IMG/VR virus record: IMGVR_UViG_3300037963_001896
Location: 1-60,251 of that record
DNA: 60,251 nt
Direction: 5' to 3' (one strand)
Source of the DNA: a virus
Of this stretch, positions 15,925 through 57,296 are shown one piece after another. Positions within the stretch are counted from its first letter, which is position 1. Each line of letters starts with the position of its first letter. The translations under genes and the position numbers were made by a program. Below the pieces are notes generated by a model. It was not told the DNA's origin. It worked only from the letters and a program-made list of their open reading frames with translations, and made no database searches.

Positions 15925-16086
15925 TTACTTGTCCTTTGCTTTTCCTATATTCAAAGCCAAGAAATCTATGACTTTATATAGCTTAGCTAAAAGTTTATCT
16001 CCTTGTGGGGTTGGTGTAATTGCTGCTACGAAAGACGCAATAGCAATAATAGACGTAATCCACATAAATATGTTGATATATAGCAT
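15925..16086 (-). CDS. Small membrane protein (holin-like size)
   Basis: 53 aa: a hydrophobic helix at about 5-24 (IFMWITSIIAIASFVAAI), the motif TPTPQGDKLLAKLYKVID, then LALNIGKAKDK. This pattern recurs in phage genomes as a small membrane protein of unknown role. Strong ribosome site TAGGAGG. It immediately follows the CHASE2-cyclase gene. A holin or holin-regulator role is possible, but another holin is at 26346. Confidence 0.65.
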   Translation of the reverse strand: MLYINIFMWITSIIAIASFVAAITPTPQGDKLLAKLYKVIDFLALNIGKAKDK

Positions 16087-16108: not shown

Positions 16109-17887
16109 TTATTCCATAAATGTGAATACTCTCAAAGGTTTTGCTTTACCTTTTACAGGCATAGGATCCAACTCTTGTAAGTAATAGCCACACAAAGATT
16201 CTGTCCGTTCACCTATAAGTATGTCTTTACCTGCTTCTTTAGTTGCTGACTCCAAGCGTGCACCACAGTTTACTGCATCTCCAATTGCTGTGTAATCGAA
16301 CCGTGATTCGCTGCCCATGTTTCCTATTACCGCTTCACCTGTGTTTACACCGATTCCGATCGCAATAGGGGGAAGTCCTTCAACTTGCAGTTCATTATTC
16401 AACTCTTTCATGTTTTTAACTATATCGTGCGCACAATCACATGCAGCTTTTGCATGACTAGGTATATCTAACGGAGCGTTAAATATAGCCATCATGGCAT
16501 CTCCAATGTACTTATCTACCATCCCACCGTGCTTTTGTACTGCTTCTTGTTGTGCTGTAAGAGCTTTATTCATTACGTACGTTACTTGTTCAGGTTCTAG
16601 CTTTTCAGACATAGAGGTAAAACCCCTAACGTCTGTAAATAAAAACGTAGCTTCTTTCTTTTCACCGCCTAACTTAAGTATATCTGGGTCATCTTGCAGA
16701 CGTTTTACCTGCCTAGGATCTAAGTAATGTTCAAATTGTTTCTTAATCTGCTGGCGAAGGAGTGATTGTTCTCTAAAGTTAAGCCAGAATTGCTGCCCTA
16801 ATATAAGCAACAGTGATATACCACTATAAGTAGTGTCTATTAATAAAGCTTTTTGACTTACAAGATACCACTCAAGTCCAGCTGTACTTACAAGAAGACC
16901 TGCAGCTCCAAGTGCCATGTACGCGTACGTACATTTACGCCCGAGCAGGAGACCCAATGTACACAAAACTAAAAATATAAGTAGCTCGTATACAAGCCTA
17001 TCTGCAGGTATTTGTGGGCTGTTAGGTAATAATAAACTCTCCGCCAGGGCTGCTTGTACGTGATGAGGGTTTAATAGACCGTCGGGCGTGGCTATTTGAG
17101 GCATAACACCAGCTGCTGTAACACCAATAAACACAAACTTTCCTTCTACCTGGGGGTCTTGTAACGTAGTTTTAGGTGTATCCACCCAAGAAATCCACTT
17201 TCTGCCGTATTTATCTGTAGGTATTACACCTAACGCAGGTATCCGAACCGCTTGTATACCACTTTCGTATGTTTTAATCTGATATGTTCCTTCCCCGGTT
17301 AAAACTTTTAGTACTTGTGTAGCAAATGAAGCAACCCAACCCTTGGGAGTTTGTACAATAAGAGGAACTCGTCTAACTAAGTTATCCACATCTGTTGGGG
17401 CTGATACAATACCTTGATAAGCCGCTTCTTCTAGCTGGTTTACGTTAGCTAAATGCCCTGACAATGTAATCATATCTACAGGGTTATCCCCAAGAACTAC
17501 AGTTCCATCAGTAGATGGATAGATTCGGTTTTCATATTCAGGTATTGCCAGTACGTTTGTGCCCTGCTGCAGACTCATTGCGAACTCGGCATCACCACCA
17601 AAACGATCTGCTTGTGGAAACATAATTACCCAACCCACGCCTAACGCTCCACGGTCGAGCAAGTCTGTTTGTATTTCTGCTAATCGCTGTCTTGGAAAAG
17701 GCCAACCGCCTTCTTTACTAATATCATTTTCAGTGATATCTAGTATTACAAAGTGGCCGCTGGGAGTTTGTTCTTGTACAAGTGCATCAAAGGTTTTAAG
17801 GCGAAGTACCTCTAAAGCTTTATAATCAAATATAAGTGGCAGTGATAATACTGCTACTGTAACTGCCCCTATTAACCACTTACTCAT
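16109..17887 (-). CDS. CHASE2-domain adenylate/guanylate cyclase
   Basis: 592 aa inner-membrane receptor-cyclase. N-terminal helix (4-20), periplasmic CHASE2 sensor (about 25-295), three transmembrane helices (about 300-370), then a class III cyclase domain (about 410-592). Catalytic residues are present: metal-binding Asp419 (LFTDVRGF) and Asp463 (YIGDAMMA), purine-recognition Lys459, Thr533 (DYTAIGD), Asn540 and Arg544 (VNCGAR). Lys/Thr at the base-reading sites favour ATP, giving cAMP. The start overlaps the FecR gene stop by 4 bases (ATGA). CHASE2-cyclase/FecR neighbours are known in bacteria; in a phage this is very unusual. Confidence 0.92.
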   Translation of the reverse strand: MSKWLIGAVTVAVLSLPLIFDYKALEVLRLKTFDALVQEQTPSGHFVILDITENDISKEGGWPFPRQRLAEIQTDLLDRGALGVGWVIMFPQADRFGGDAEFAMSLQQGTNVLAIPEYENRIYPSTDGTVVLGDNPVDMITLSGHLANVNQLEEAAYQGIVSAPTDVDNLVRRVPLIVQTPKGWVASFATQVLKVLTGEGTYQIKTYESGIQAVRIPALGVIPTDKYGRKWISWVDTPKTTLQDPQVEGKFVFIGVTAAGVMPQIATPDGLLNPHHVQAALAESLLLPNSPQIPADRLVYELLIFLVLCTLGLLLGRKCTYAYMALGAAGLLVSTAGLEWYLVSQKALLIDTTYSGISLLLILGQQFWLNFREQSLLRQQIKKQFEHYLDPRQVKRLQDDPDILKLGGEKKEATFLFTDVRGFTSMSEKLEPEQVTYVMNKALTAQQEAVQKHGGMVDKYIGDAMMAIFNAPLDIPSHAKAACDCAHDIVKNMKELNNELQVEGLPPIAIGIGVNTGEAVIGNMGSESRFDYTAIGDAVNCGARLESATKEAGKDILIGERTESLCGYYLQELDPMPVKGKAKPLRVFTFME

Positions 17888-18999
17888 CCTGAGTTCTGCT
17901 TAATAGTAATATTTGACCCGCCGCCATTAATAATAATTTGATTAGATTTCCCATCTTGTATAAGTATAACCGTATATCCCTGCGAAATGTTTAAATCCAC
18001 TCGTACTGTCTGACTTACAGATCTTCGCAAACTTAACATTTCTCCCTGGATAATAGTTGTAATTTGCGTTTGGGGGTCTTGTCCTATTTGTGTGCCTCTA
18101 ACTACTGTAGAACTAACATCGCTTTTTAACTCATCATCTTGAAGCACGTCTAGTTCTTCAATTACAGCAAGCAGATCTTCAAGAAAGTTAGTATCTAAAT
18201 AGTTTATATCTAGCTCGGTAAACTCTAAATCAGTTTCATTATCAAGAAAATCTTCGGCAAGAAAGTCTATATCTAAGTCATTAAAGTCCAAATAACTTGC
18301 ATTACTAGAAACAGCGTTCACCGTCTGTGCTTGTACGTCTTCTTCAGGAGGCGTTACAATTAACATGTTATCTATAAGCTCAAGTGTTATATCTAAAATA
18401 ACCGGTTTGCTAGGTGTAGTTTCAAACACACTTACAGTCGTAGCCTGGTAAGGTTTGTTTAACACAACATCGCCCATTGCAGTAGATACAAGTATTTCTC
18501 CTGAAGAAACACCATTAGCATCAGGTAGTAATATTATTAAAGATCTACCTAACTCATCTACGGTGCACGTAAAATCAGTCCCTCGAATTGCAATATTTGC
18601 AGTGGGAGTACGTATACTTATGTTTTCTTTACGGATTGTGTTTATTTTGCCAGATACATAACGGATGGTCCCGCTGGCAAATTGTAAAGCCATCTGTGAT
18701 TTAGATGGATCTGGGTCATAGATGTATTTATCTACAACAAGTTTAGAGTGCTCAGTTAAACGTACAACCGAATCATCTAAAAAACGAAGACCTATACGTC
18801 CATTACTAGTACGTACATCGTCCTGGGACTGTATTCCTAGTTTCAGTTCTGCATCATAAGGTTTATCCCGTATGACTTTGGCAAAACCTGTTAGTTCAGA
18901 TACATTCCCTATATCAACAACTTGTGCTAGTTCCGCCGTCGTTTTGAACGACGCAAACAGTACCGTTGTTGCCAGAAGAAATAATCTTAAGGTAGTCAT
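17884..18999 (-). CDS. Secreted FecR-domain protein with acidic repeats
   Basis: 371 aa. Signal peptide 1-22 (LFLLATTVLFASF core), FecR domain at about 35-180 (with TPTANIAIRGTDF), then two tandem ~21-residue acidic repeats (about 237-278: FNDLDIDFL / FTELDINYL). The C-terminal tail (331-371) is beta-rich and Gln/Asn/Gly-rich (ILIQDGKSNQIIINGGGSN), resembling curlin strands. It is not the anti-sigma form of FecR: no N-terminal cytoplasmic domain and no sigma factor nearby. Likely exported to the periplasm or surface; may be the ligand or partner of the CHASE2 sensor. Its signal peptide is encoded within the 3' end of the curlin-like gene (86-base overlap). Confidence 0.85.
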   Translation of the reverse strand: MTTLRLFLLATTVLFASFKTTAELAQVVDIGNVSELTGFAKVIRDKPYDAELKLGIQSQDDVRTSNGRIGLRFLDDSVVRLTEHSKLVVDKYIYDPDPSKSQMALQFASGTIRYVSGKINTIRKENISIRTPTANIAIRGTDFTCTVDELGRSLIILLPDANGVSSGEILVSTAMGDVVLNKPYQATTVSVFETTPSKPVILDITLELIDNMLIVTPPEEDVQAQTVNAVSSNASYLDFNDLDIDFLAEDFLDNETDLEFTELDINYLDTNFLEDLLAVIEELDVLQDDELKSDVSSTVVRGTQIGQDPQTQITTIIQGEMLSLRRSVSQTVRVDLNISQGYTVILIQDGKSNQIIINGGGSNITIKQNSG

Positions 19000-19639
19000 T
19001 ATCCAATGTGCTTTGCTGCTCTATGTTAAACGTCCTGCTATTACCTGTTTGATCTAAGTAAAAATAACCACCCGCATAACCATCTGCATCAAAAGTAAGA
19101 GTGTTGCTGTCACCATCAACATCAACATAATTTGTTGCTCCGTCATAATCAATGTCTATAGTAAATGTGTTGCTGTCACCTTGAATGATCCAATCTAGAT
19201 CTAAACCGCTAGCTAACGCATTAGTGCCCTGGTCAAAAGTAAATGTGTTACTTGACCCTGTTACATCAACATTCCAATTGGAATTATCAATACCGTAGGT
19301 ATTTGTAGGATCACCTTGAAAAGTAAAGGTGTTACTGTCGCCATCGAATTCAAAAAACCCTGTAAGTGAGTCTCCCCAAATATCACCCAAGAATTTATTG
19401 CTGTCTCCAATTTGATTTATATCTAGAGTTAAACTAGTGCCGTCTAAATCTAAAGGAGTAAGTGTGCCTGCAATCGAATTCAGTCCTCCTATAATATTCC
19501 CTGATCCTAATTGCTCTAAGTCTATATTAGCTGTCGCTCCTGACTGATCTATATAAATCTCGTTATCCGCTGCAAACGTAACCAAAGGAAATAACAGAAA
19601 GATACTAAGAAGAAGGCTCTTGCTCTTGTTCTTTTTCAT
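18914..19639 (-). CDS. Curlin-repeat (CsgA-like) secreted protein
   Basis: 241 aa: signal peptide 1-23 (cleavage near TFA-AD), then about seven imperfect repeats of the type G-D/S-SNTFTFD (IYIDQSGATANI, LDINQIGDSNKF, FEFDGDSNTFTFQG, VDVTGSSNTFTFD, IIQGDSNTFTID, VDVDGDSNTLTFD, LDQTGNSRTFNIE). Spacing of about 20-25 residues and Gln/Asn/Ser ladders fit the curlin beta-strand-loop-strand fold, here more acidic than E. coli CsgA. It ends with two cysteines (GTVCVVQ...TSC). Ribosome site GGAG. Directly after csgG, overlapping it by 35 bases; the obvious substrate of that pore. Confidence 0.75.
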   Translation of the reverse strand: MKKNKSKSLLLSIFLLFPLVTFAADNEIYIDQSGATANIDLEQLGSGNIIGGLNSIAGTLTPLDLDGTSLTLDINQIGDSNKFLGDIWGDSLTGFFEFDGDSNTFTFQGDPTNTYGIDNSNWNVDVTGSSNTFTFDQGTNALASGLDLDWIIQGDSNTFTIDIDYDGATNYVDVDGDSNTLTFDADGYAGGYFYLDQTGNSRTFNIEQQSTLDNDYLKIISSGNNGTVCVVQNDGGTSTSC

Positions 19640-20450
19640 CTTCTAATCTCCAAAAACCAGCGTTTTCACCCTCCTTGATTACTTCTAATACCGCTGTTTC
19701 GATAGCTGCACGTAATGCTAAATTTATAGATTCATTGCGTACTCTACCACTCTCAATTTCAACCAACTCAGTTCCTGTTGATATGAACCTAAAGACATCT
19801 TGACTTACCGAAGCACTTAAAATAGTCTTTGTAACCAAGACATCCAGTAATACTTTACCTGTAGCCACGGAAACAACGCGGAGGGAAACGGACACGGTGT
19901 CACGCCGATATTCTTTTGAGCCGCCAATCCCTAAATGACGTGCTCCTGCGCCTCCAGATTCAATATTACTCTCATATCCTACCACACCACCTTCTATTAT
20001 CAAACCAGCGAACAAAAGTGCGGGTAGTTTGTTCTTCTCATCAAACTCTTGGCGTGTGCTACGAATAAGCTGACGTTCTTTAGTAACGTGGTCTAAACCA
20101 ACCCGTTCGACAACTTCAAAAAATCCATTTTCGTTTGTTCCAGCGTGTTTAAGAGCGCGAATTAAATACACATACGGAGCTTGAGTAACTGCAGTAGAAA
20201 ATGTAGCAAACGAGCTGTTGCTTCTACGCTGACCTGTATCGTCCTTAAAACCATCTGCATACACAGCGACTACTGGTTTCTTTGTAGTTGCACTGCGCAC
20301 ATTCGCTAACTCAGTAAGAACAATTTGTTCGACTTGGGCTTCTTCTATGCGTTCAATTGGCCCTATGTTGTTTTCAATAGGGTCAAATAGTAACGCACAG
20401 CTAGAAAGTAAAGGAACCAATAGGAAGGGTAATTTCTGTAGTATTCCCAT
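19605..20450 (-). CDS. csgG: CsgG-type outer-membrane curli secretion pore
   Basis: 281 aa from ATG 20450, chosen because it gives a lipoprotein signal with lipobox LSSC (lipidated Cys18). An upstream in-frame start at 20486 would bury this signal. The body matches E. coli CsgG along most of its length: VAVYADGFKDDTGQ, FSTAVTQA, VVERVGL...ERQLIR, GGVVGYESN, GGAGARHLGIG, VSLRVVSVATGKVL, VTKTILS, VFRFI, AIETAV. The constriction loop between DTGQ and FSTAV is one residue longer than in E. coli, keeps the Phe, and lacks Tyr and Asn at the expected places. It should form a nonameric outer-membrane channel. Overlaps csgF by 50 bases. Confidence 0.93.
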   Translation of the reverse strand: MGILQKLPFLLVPLLSSCALLFDPIENNIGPIERIEEAQVEQIVLTELANVRSATTKKPVVAVYADGFKDDTGQRRSNSSFATFSTAVTQAPYVYLIRALKHAGTNENGFFEVVERVGLDHVTKERQLIRSTRQEFDEKNKLPALLFAGLIIEGGVVGYESNIESGGAGARHLGIGGSKEYRRDTVSVSLRVVSVATGKVLLDVLVTKTILSASVSQDVFRFISTGTELVEIESGRVRNESINLALRAAIETAVLEVIKEGENAGFWRLEDEKEQEQEPSS

Positions 20451-20940
20451 CAGCGTCTGTAATTTTAAGTGTGATATAGTCTCCATCTACTGAGTACTCA
20501 ATTGTGTTACCCATCAATTCTAACACACCGCTTTCGCTTGGCGTTTCTCCAAACAATTGTTCTACTAACTGCCTAGATAATTGAGCGTAGATTCTAGACT
20601 CTAAATTTCTAATAAATCTTGCAAGAGTAGTGTTTTCTTTCTCTCTTTCAAGTTCTTCTCGATAAGCTTTAATTTCTTCTTTAATCGCTTTTTTACGATT
20701 AAATTCTTGGTTTTCTATTGTGAGGTAGTGACTAGAAGTGCCTATGCCACTAAAAGAAGGGTTCTTAAACTTGTGCACCATTTCATCAGCGTTGAGCTGC
20801 GATGCAAAAATACCACCTAATAAAAAGATTCCAATAGCACAGATGATGTATAGAAGTCTTTGCTTATCCGCTTCTCTTTTCCTAAAAGCTAGTTCAGCGT
20901 TGCTGGGCCTTCCTCGCTTTTTAGTCTTTACGTTGGTCAT
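20401..20940 (-). CDS. csgF: CsgF-like curli assembly factor with atypical N-terminus
   Basis: 179 aa. From residue 52 it aligns with E. coli CsgF: MVHKFKNPSFSG corresponds to the pore-binding N-terminal peptide (FQFRNPNFGG), then a helical middle (ARFIRNLESRIYAQLSRQL) and a C-terminal beta part (YSVDGDYITLKITDADGNTTEI). Unlike E. coli CsgF it has ~28 basic residues, including KKRGRPSNAEL (AT-hook-like), before a hydrophobic segment (29-46). A signal-peptidase site at LNA-DE is possible. It overlaps the preceding gene by 20 bases and csgG by 50. Confidence 0.88.
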   Translation of the reverse strand: MTNVKTKKRGRPSNAELAFRKREADKQRLLYIICAIGIFLLGGIFASQLNADEMVHKFKNPSFSGIGTSSHYLTIENQEFNRKKAIKEEIKAYREELEREKENTTLARFIRNLESRIYAQLSRQLVEQLFGETPSESGVLELMGNTIEYSVDGDYITLKITDADGNTTEITLPIGSFTF

Positions 20941-21271
20941 CTCTATCTGCTTTTGCTATTTTATCTGTATCTATTAAGTTAGGTACTCCTAAAATTGTTT
21001 TAATCATCGTGTCCTGACGTATGATTTCGTTGTCAAGACTACGAACTCTATCTATCAAGGCTACCAGTATACCGTGCTGTGAGTCAAGTTTTGTGCCAAG
21101 ACGTTGTTCCATCTGCTCTATCTGTTGAGCTACTTTATCGTCTACAACGTCTAGTTTTGACTCCATTCCATCTACAATCCGTATCACTAACTTGTAGATA
21201 AACCAGCCTAGACCACCGGCCGCAGCTATAGGGAAGCCAACTTCGTTAATAAACTTAATGGCTTCTTCCAT
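20921..21271 (-). CDS. Membrane-anchored coiled-coil protein (holin-like)
   Basis: 116 aa: one transmembrane helix at about 10-32 (VGFPIAAAGGLGWFIYKLVIRIV), then a long coiled coil (35-95). Small phage proteins of this build are often listed as holin-like. It sits between the tail genes and the curli module, so it may be part of either. Ends by overlapping csgF. Confidence 0.65.
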   Translation of the reverse strand: MEEAIKFINEVGFPIAAAGGLGWFIYKLVIRIVDGMESKLDVVDDKVAQQIEQMEQRLGTKLDSQHGILVALIDRVRSLDNEIIRQDTMIKTILGVPNLIDTDKIAKADRDDQRKD

Positions 21272-25942: not shown

Positions 25943-26353
25943 TCACCCCTCCAAAACTAAATCTTTTAGTCGGGTGCTCCTCGGTCCTACTTGTACAGCC
26001 CACTTTGAATCTAACATCTCAACGCCAGCTGTCTCCCAGTCTCCTGCCTCCATGGCAGCTAAAAAGTTTTTGAACCCCATAAGCCTAGATAGACCTAAGT
26101 TGAAGCACATATTTACCATAACACGCTGTCTAGTGTCAGATAAATCTACAAACCAAGGGAAAGCGTTAGTAAGTTCTTCTATACAAATGTCAATGTCATT
26201 ACTTAATAAATAATCAGACTCGTCATCTGTAATGCCGCGATCGTCCAAATTTCTGCCCACGCCAATTGTATTTTTGCCTGCGCTGCATTGGTACAGAGTA
26301 AGAACTACCCCTTCGTCACGTTTTAACTCTTCGATTAACTGCTCTCTATTCAT
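25943..26353 (-). CDS. Endolysin, GH24 lysozyme of the Glu-Cys-Thr type
   Basis: 136 aa from ATG 26353 (overlaps the holin stop by 8 bases; longer in-frame starts are unnecessary). The catalytic E-8-D-5-T signature of T4 lysozyme is present as Glu14, Cys23, Thr29 (RDEGVVLTLYQCSAGKNTIG). Cys in place of Asp occurs in other phage lysozymes and is compatible with activity. No signal peptide or SAR helix, so it needs the holin next door for release. Cleaves peptidoglycan at lysis. Confidence 0.9.
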   Translation of the reverse strand: MNREQLIEELKRDEGVVLTLYQCSAGKNTIGVGRNLDDRGITDDESDYLLSNDIDICIEELTNAFPWFVDLSDTRQRVMVNMCFNLGLSRLMGFKNFLAAMEAGDWETAGVEMLDSKWAVQVGPRSTRLKDLVLEG

Positions 26354-26828
26354 TATCTTTACCGCCCCCATGAGACGCACCAAAGTAAAAAGATATAACA
26401 GCAGACGCTAAACCACCTAAATATCCCAAAACAAGGTTAATTAGAGCTTCGCTGTTTTGCTCTGGCGGTTGTAGGGTTACTAAAAATATATACCCAAGAA
26501 AACCGCCTAACGTAGCAATACCCATAATACGGGTAGTCCAATCTTTAGAAAATTTACTTCTAGCATCTTGTATATCTTTAGTTTCTAAAGCAAATACATC
26601 TACTTCTAACTCGGCCATTTGCAATTCAAAAGCTTGTTCAGCTTTTTTAAGTTCTAGCATTTGTTCAGGTGTTGCAGCTTGAACTGCTTTTTGAATAGCT
26701 TTTGGGTTGTCATCGCACCCTAAAACACTTGCAATTGTTTTTGCAGCCATACCGCCCATAGGACCACCTAGTGCAGTCCCTAATGTAGGAGCTACTGCCC
26801 CTACAAGATTTTTTAATAATGCTTTCAC
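26346..26828 (-). CDS. Holin of the 3-TM GTA type
   Basis: 160 aa. Glycine/alanine-rich hydrophobic N-terminus (6-35), a helical soluble middle (45-85), two membrane helices (about 94-113 and 123-145) and a short tail. This matches the GTA_holin_3TM family. Overlaps the endolysin gene, a normal lysis cassette arrangement. Confidence 0.8.
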   Translation of the reverse strand: MKALLKNLVGAVAPTLGTALGGPMGGMAAKTIASVLGCDDNPKAIQKAVQAATPEQMLELKKAEQAFELQMAELEVDVFALETKDIQDARSKFSKDWTTRIMGIATLGGFLGYIFLVTLQPPEQNSEALINLVLGYLGGLASAVISFYFGASHGGGKDNE

Positions 26829-56999: not shown

Positions 57000-57296
57000 T
57001 CAACACTTCCACCTCCTCCTAGCTTGTCGAATCCTTGAGTTCGGATTATTTCTAGTTTTAGCAGAACTGCGTTTCAATTGTCCTAATGACCTAGCGCAAT
57101 AGGACTTACGTCTTTTAGCAGCTTTGCTGCCTTTTTTAACTTTACCTGTAACCGCAGTCTTTAACTTTGAACCGGGGTTCGCCTTTCTATAAGCTTTGAC
57201 ACCTTTACGTGTCATTCCCGCACCTTTCTTTGTAGGGCGATAATTACCGCCTTTACCAGTGGTGCGTCGTATAGATTTAGCTTTCTTTCTTGGCAT
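57000..57296 (-). CDS. Phage protein of unknown function (DUF6321-like)
   Basis: 98 aa, strongly basic: GKGGNYRPTKKGAGMTRKGVKAY, then NPGSKLKTAVTGKVKKGSKAAKRR, ending with RIRQARRRWKC. I know this pattern from many marine phage genomes; it is often next to the terminase. Probably binds DNA. Confidence 0.7.
   Translation of the reverse strand: MPRKKAKSIRRTTGKGGNYRPTKKGAGMTRKGVKAYRKANPGSKLKTAVTGKVKKGSKAAKRRKSYCARSLGQLKRSSAKTRNNPNSRIRQARRRWKC

Follow-up and report, generated by a model that had tools for sequence, protein, structure and literature searches.

CsgF and CsgG were found in the hypervariable region of pelagimyophages (Zaragoza-Solas et al. 2020, PMC7029224), and the full set, with FecR and an adenylate cyclase, was reported from HTVC023P-type podophages and pelagimyophages (Wittmers et al. 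2022, PMC9599517). The module of Wittmers et al. runs small gene ("HK"), CsgF, CsgG, CsgA/B, FecR, an occasional second CsgA/B and cyclase, and one survey reported phage curli modules from every one of its 65 ocean stations (PMC9599517). For Melnitz, Buchholz et al. 2022 modeled the pore, proposed a role in lysis timing and saw no cell clumping in infected cultures. Here, we analyzed the curli-type module of a marine phage in a window consisting of the entire 60,251-nucleotide stretch of viral record IMGVR_UViG_3300037963_001896. Its gene order is that of Wittmers et al., and both modules lack CsgC, CsgD, and CsgE. The window differs in having a KPP25/phiA008-like backbone, no second curlin gene, and a small gene without kinase homology. 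The modules of Pelagibacter phage HTVC008M and Methylophilales phage Melnitz, both T4-like myophages, also have the window's order, with CsgG 46 to 50% and cyclase 32 to 36% identical to the window's. In these two, however, a pair of small membrane proteins lies upstream, and FecR is separated from the cyclase by a second curlin-type gene. A preliminary description of this DNA had held the combination of substrate, FecR, and cyclase to be previously unseen. That novelty fails because Wittmers et al. had already described these genes in this order, FecR and cyclase included, and the same order stands in the deposited HTVC008M and Melnitz records. The window module is a real, conserved example of a kind already described, on a further phage backbone.

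With the bacterial curli (type VIII) operons csgBAC and csgDEFG, the module shares CsgG, CsgF, and a putative curlin-repeat substrate, and it differs from them in that CsgC, CsgD, and CsgE were not seen in it. No gene for CsgE, CsgB, CsgC, or CsgD was seen in the module, as had been noted before. A bacterial ancestor operon was also considered, but none of the 18 bacterial loci examined, each 10 to 20 kb long, had FecR, the cyclase, or the small gene in the vicinity of csgG.

The preliminary description had named five overlapping minus-strand genes, for csgF-like, csgG, curlin-like, FecR, and CHASE2 cyclase proteins. All five are open reading frames at the coordinates it gave (Table 1), and four of the five had Pfam matches; the CHASE2, class III cyclase, FecR, CsgG, and CsgF domains clearly exceeded the Pfam cutoffs. 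The overlaps of 50, 35, 86, and 4 bases reported there are exact when the ATG at 20450 is taken as the CsgG start. The longest CsgG reading frame begins at 20486, but 20450, which yields a lipobox, is the probable start. A sixth gene, missing from that account, lies before csgF and overlaps it by 20 bases.

Table 1. Genes of the curli-type module and linked genes in the window
Feature	Position	Strand	Evidence or remark
Small membrane protein, 53 aa, phrog_9685, after cyclase gene	15925..16086	-	Strong Shine-Dalgarno; homologues flank module in other phages
Class III nucleotide cyclase with CHASE2 domain (592 aa), a predicted adenylate cyclase	16109..17887	-	Pfam CHASE2 3.7e-32, Guanylate_cyc 9e-22
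Exported FecR-domain protein, 371 aa	17884..18999	-	Pfam FecR 5e-11; C-terminal beta repeat conserved
Curlin-like secreted repeat protein, 241 aa	18914..19639	-	Sec signal peptide, alignment, conserved C-terminal Cys pair
CsgG, outer-membrane pore lipoprotein (281 aa with start at ATG 20450)	19605..20450	-	Pfam CsgG 8.8e-45; lipobox LSSC
CsgF-like protein, 179 aa	20401..20940	-	Pfam CsgF 2.2e-18; signal segment behind basic N-terminal extension
Membrane protein of 116 aa with one membrane pass and a C-terminal coiled coil	20921..21271	-	Sixth module gene, precedes csgF
Phage lysozyme (endolysin), linked gene	25943..26383	-	Pfam Phage_lysozyme 2.6e-11; PHROG endolysin 9.5e-23
Putative holin of phrog_1544 (160 aa) with two membrane segments, linked gene	26346..26828	-	Lysozyme adjacency in relatives

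We scanned viral contigs for CsgG, which gave 287 relatives, the best 80 of which were kept. The order small gene, CsgF, CsgG, curlin, FecR, cyclase recurs in these best 80 of 287, with gaps mainly at contig ends. A second set of 80 records, drawn with HTVC008M CsgG as the query, repeats this order; here two small genes are usual, and an additional curlin-type gene is frequent. The viral-contig search that the preliminary description had proposed thus found the gene order repeated in about 160 viral records, and in close relatives the genes were intact and kept in order rather than broken or scattered. The overlaps are kept as well: CsgF-CsgG in 78 of 80 relatives (median, 53 bases), CsgG-curlin in 78 of 80 (35 bases), and curlin-FecR in all 78 of 78 (86 bases), with FecR-cyclase kept in only 30 of 60. 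Compared over full length with close relatives, all six genes gave dN/dS values of 0.03 to 0.17, lowest for the curlin-like gene (0.04 to 0.06) and the small gene, and all module genes are under purifying selection. This recurrence and the low dN/dS values put the arrangement far beyond chance. A promoter and terminator scan gave fewer promoter-like sites than shuffled sequence did. The 53-amino-acid protein that follows the cyclase gene has the strongest Shine-Dalgarno sequence of the region, and its relatives elsewhere lie just upstream of the module.

Next, we examined the export proteins. Window CsgG matched E. coli CsgG structures at an E value of 2e-41, and its lipobox cysteine is invariant in 23 homologues. 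The CsgF homologues conserve the motif FK(N/S)PSFSG, taken, by comparison with E. coli CsgF, to be the N-terminal pore-binding motif; a single-sequence search with CsgF against the PDB gave no true match. The basic N-terminal extension of CsgF (20838-20940), found in some relatives only, carries an RGRPS (AT-hook-like) motif ahead of the signal segment, and a similar motif occurs in another small open reading frame of a related locus (L095, 5868-6056). The curlin-like protein is the weakest assignment, with a Curlin_rpt E value of 0.43 and a CsgB model E value of 0.0064, both below the cutoff. We assign it because it has a signal peptide, QxGxxN positions conserved in 22 homologues, and a place in the operon. 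Its homologue in Melnitz does pass the cutoff (Pfam Curlin_rpt, 8.6e-6). The structure model, built like the others from alignments of the window and viral loci only, consists of all-beta repeats (pLDDT 75), and a fold search with it in the PDB gave no match at E < 0.001, only weak matches of beta-helix type. HTVC008M and Melnitz lack the C-terminal cysteine pair C229/C241 in their first curlin genes but have an echo of it in their second ones. Profile searches, Pfam included, found no match to the CsgE plug among the module's open reading frames.

The FecR protein ends in a beta repeat, QDGxxN...GG...I.I.Q, that is conserved in its homologues and looks curlin-like. As a proven curlin repeat it was rejected: the best non-FecR matches include curlin-like proteins, at an E value of 0.4 or worse (best, 0.43), so that a relationship to curlin repeats is only suggestive. 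The FecR structure model was poor (pLDDT 46). In the cyclase, both metal-binding aspartates, the substrate lysine, and the transition-state arginine are invariant in all 24 homologues, and the transition-state asparagine is kept in 23 of the 24. Its best solved relatives are adenylate cyclases; the active site is intact by sequence, and the enzyme is predicted to make cAMP. As in its family, the CHASE2 sensor is presumed to be periplasmic. A search for cNMP-binding domains found none in the phage, and the same search was positive in 12 of 14 control genomes. Therefore, any effect of cAMP must run through the host.

The sixth gene belongs to a family of proteins of about 82 to 116 amino acids, each with one membrane segment followed by a coiled coil. 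Wittmers et al. 2022 (PMC9599517) reported a histidine kinase ahead of the curli genes in every case, and the gene at 20921-21271 is apparently the one that they so labeled. We found no match to a kinase domain in 18 members of this family, a set that includes HTVC008M and Melnitz and has HTVC023P-type sequences outside it. The window protein has a weak match to the holin family phrog_4898 (E, 2.9e-4), and Pfam YvrJ was matched in 6 of the 18 members, at best with an E value of 0.021; by these matches the protein is weakly holin- or YvrJ-like. Doubt is thereby cast on the label "histidine kinase" for the gene upstream of csgF, which may stem from misannotation instead of marking a real difference.

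We then asked which genes adjoin the module. Among the 80 records with upstream sequence, which are not independent of one another, 47 have a putative holin gene as the immediate upstream neighbor of the small gene, often with a lysozyme gene before the holin, and another small membrane protein takes that position in a further 17 (9 of them like HTVC103P gp50, with 4 and 4 from two other families). In three myophage-type loci, a lysozyme gene lies just upstream of the module. Holin-like and lysozyme genes, the phage holin-endolysin cassette, thus directly precede the module in many relatives, whereas the window and its closest relatives have the pair apart from it, about 4.7 kb upstream on the same strand. 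The gene at 26346-26828 is called a putative holin because it has two membrane segments and its homologues adjoin lysozyme or DD-peptidase genes in unrelated phages and lysozyme genes in 64 of 78 relatives. A reading of this protein as a lipoprotein u-spanin was ruled out, its cysteine not being conserved. On the late strand, a simple lipobox scan left CsgG as the sole convincing lipoprotein, and no spanin was recognized there. Curli genes are not known from any characterized lysis cassette. Judged by gene neighborhoods, the module appears usually to be attached directly to lysis genes, a linkage that is new relative to the earlier papers. A role late in infection gains support from this linkage in relatives and from the module's position on the late structural strand. 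The attachment makes a late, lysis-linked role testable. Along with the module's presence on further backbones and its movement as a unit, it limits when and where the module is likely to act; this and the doubt about the small gene's label give direct predictions for the culturable carriers HTVC008M and Melnitz.

The window record is probably a near-complete genome because it has a terminal repeat of about 98 bases. Its major capsid protein (MCP) is 54% identical to that of Pseudomonas phage KPP25 and its TerL is 53% identical to that of Aeromonas phage phiA008. Further genes matched as well, and the homologous MCP, portal, TerL, and PolA that define KPP25/phiA008-like podophages are all present. 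Membership in the HTVC023P type, which calls for a PolA with at least 45% similarity to that of HTVC023P/027P, was rejected because the window's PolA matched HTVC027P at only 22.6% identity over part of its length. A 98-amino-acid DUF6321 protein (57000-57296) is 84 to 89% identical to proteins of Pelagibacter phages HTVC100P, HTVC027P, HTVC024P, and Skadi despite the different backbones, which suggests gene exchange or a shared host range.

In 7 of 50 module-bearing records, the MCP is 81 to 95% identical to the window's, and 4 of those 7 are 58 to 64 kb long, like the window. In one carrier (G793), the DNA polymerase and primase share about half of their residues with those of Pelagibacter phage HTVC103P, but the module is 58 to 77% identical to the window's; an HTVC103P-like polymerase occurs in at least 14 of the viral records searched. 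Another (G753) has little in common with the window beyond tail and module genes. In a CsgG tree, in which HTVC023P-type copies were not included, all viral rows form one clade (support, 100/99) with 12 bacterial rows outside, and HTVC103P-like copies group with window-type ones. Because one viral clade spans unrelated backbones, the module moves between unrelated phages, and more widely than reported. Its presence on a KPP25/phiA008-like backbone and in HTVC103P-like phages is new, and it appears to move as a unit. Phage phiA008 has the same tail-fiber/replication border without the module, an empty site. A second empty site was seen when HTVC103P (L084, 16979-19070) was set against locus L173: the module is absent in the stretch read, and a gp50-like membrane protein and other small genes lie at the matching border.

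Taken together, these results lead us to a reading that, as a whole, we give about an even chance of being right: a mobile, phage-borne type VIII export module, expressed alongside the late and lysis genes, that exports a curlin-like protein and carries a FecR/CHASE2 cAMP branch. Its predicted parts are supported by sequence, namely, a CsgG outer-membrane pore, a CsgF partner, a Sec signal on the curlin-like protein, an exported FecR, and a CHASE2 cyclase with an intact site. The extracellular fiber and its coupling to cyclic-nucleotide signaling, both put forward in the preliminary description, we infer rather than observe. Shortly before lysis, the infected cell would assemble CsgG-CsgF pores, through which the curlin-like protein would be exported to the cell surface. 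Periplasmic FecR, with its curlin-like C-terminal repeat, could report the status of the pore or fiber to the CHASE2 cyclase, and the cAMP made would act on a receptor of the host because the search found none encoded by the phage. Through the small holin-like protein and the linked holin and endolysin, the module may be coupled to the timing of lysis. An altered cell surface at release, through aggregation or as a shield against other phages, would be the likely benefit. Against this reading stand the curlin-like protein's scores under the Pfam cutoff and its model's lack of a significant PDB match, the lack of a CsgE match in the module, the distance of the window's holin/endolysin pair, the nonsignificant FecR-curlin link, the poor FecR model, and the absence of clumping with Melnitz (Buchholz et al.).

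As proposed for Melnitz by Buchholz et al., the CsgG-CsgF pore and the holin-like protein may belong to the lysis machinery itself, in an outer-membrane step or in timing, with the curlin-like protein gating or plugging the pore instead of forming fibers. The direct attachment of the module to holin and lysozyme genes in phages like HTVC103P and in those of the window's type, the upstream lysozyme of the myophage-type loci, and the standing of CsgG as the one convincing late-strand lipoprotein where no spanin was recognized all speak for it. However, a bare pore needs no strongly constrained substrate and FecR, yet both are constrained; phiA008 and HTVC103P, which have no module at the corresponding site, are viable phages, and the adjacency may only mirror a common late insertion site. 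We regard this explanation as doubtful. We likewise find it rather unlikely that the holin-like protein, CsgG-CsgF, and the curlin-like protein are, with the holin and endolysin, a working part of lysis control, whose timing the FecR/CHASE2 cyclase would set via host cAMP signaling by sensing the envelope.

Wittmers et al. (PMC9599517) suggested instead that a coat of exported protein on the infected cell keeps other phages from adsorbing. Such superinfection exclusion would fit surface export and strong conservation, and we consider it distinctly unlikely. Exclusion genes usually act early, whereas this module sits among late and lysis genes. It has also been proposed that ungated CsgG admits nutrients or siderophores, with FecR as an iron regulator (PMC7029224, PMC9599517), which would agree with no CsgE plug having been found. 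This uptake pore leaves CsgF, the curlin-like substrate, and the cyclase unexplained, and FecR has a signal sequence and adjoins a CHASE2 cyclase, not a sigma factor as in the iron-citrate system; we hold it to be very improbable. Variable presence across phages and the hypervariable location in pelagimyophages (PMC7029224) might suggest neutral or decaying bacterial cargo, but the full-length dN/dS values, the intact catalytic sites, and the conserved overlaps leave that notion scarcely credible.

Phage-type modules were also seen on contigs binned in bacterial metagenome-assembled genomes (loci L088-L095, L167, and L168, the last two from a Rhodobacteraceae bin), the bins being those of Maricaulis, Rhodobacteraceae, Flavobacteriaceae, Synechococcus, and Pelagibacter. 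These contigs are probably phage contamination and could mislead surveys of csgG. Conversely, the record OR851715.1 (Salmonella phage S.Kent 1-2-1) is very short, at 1499 bases, and matches CsgG at 39%; it is possibly a host fragment deposited as a phage.
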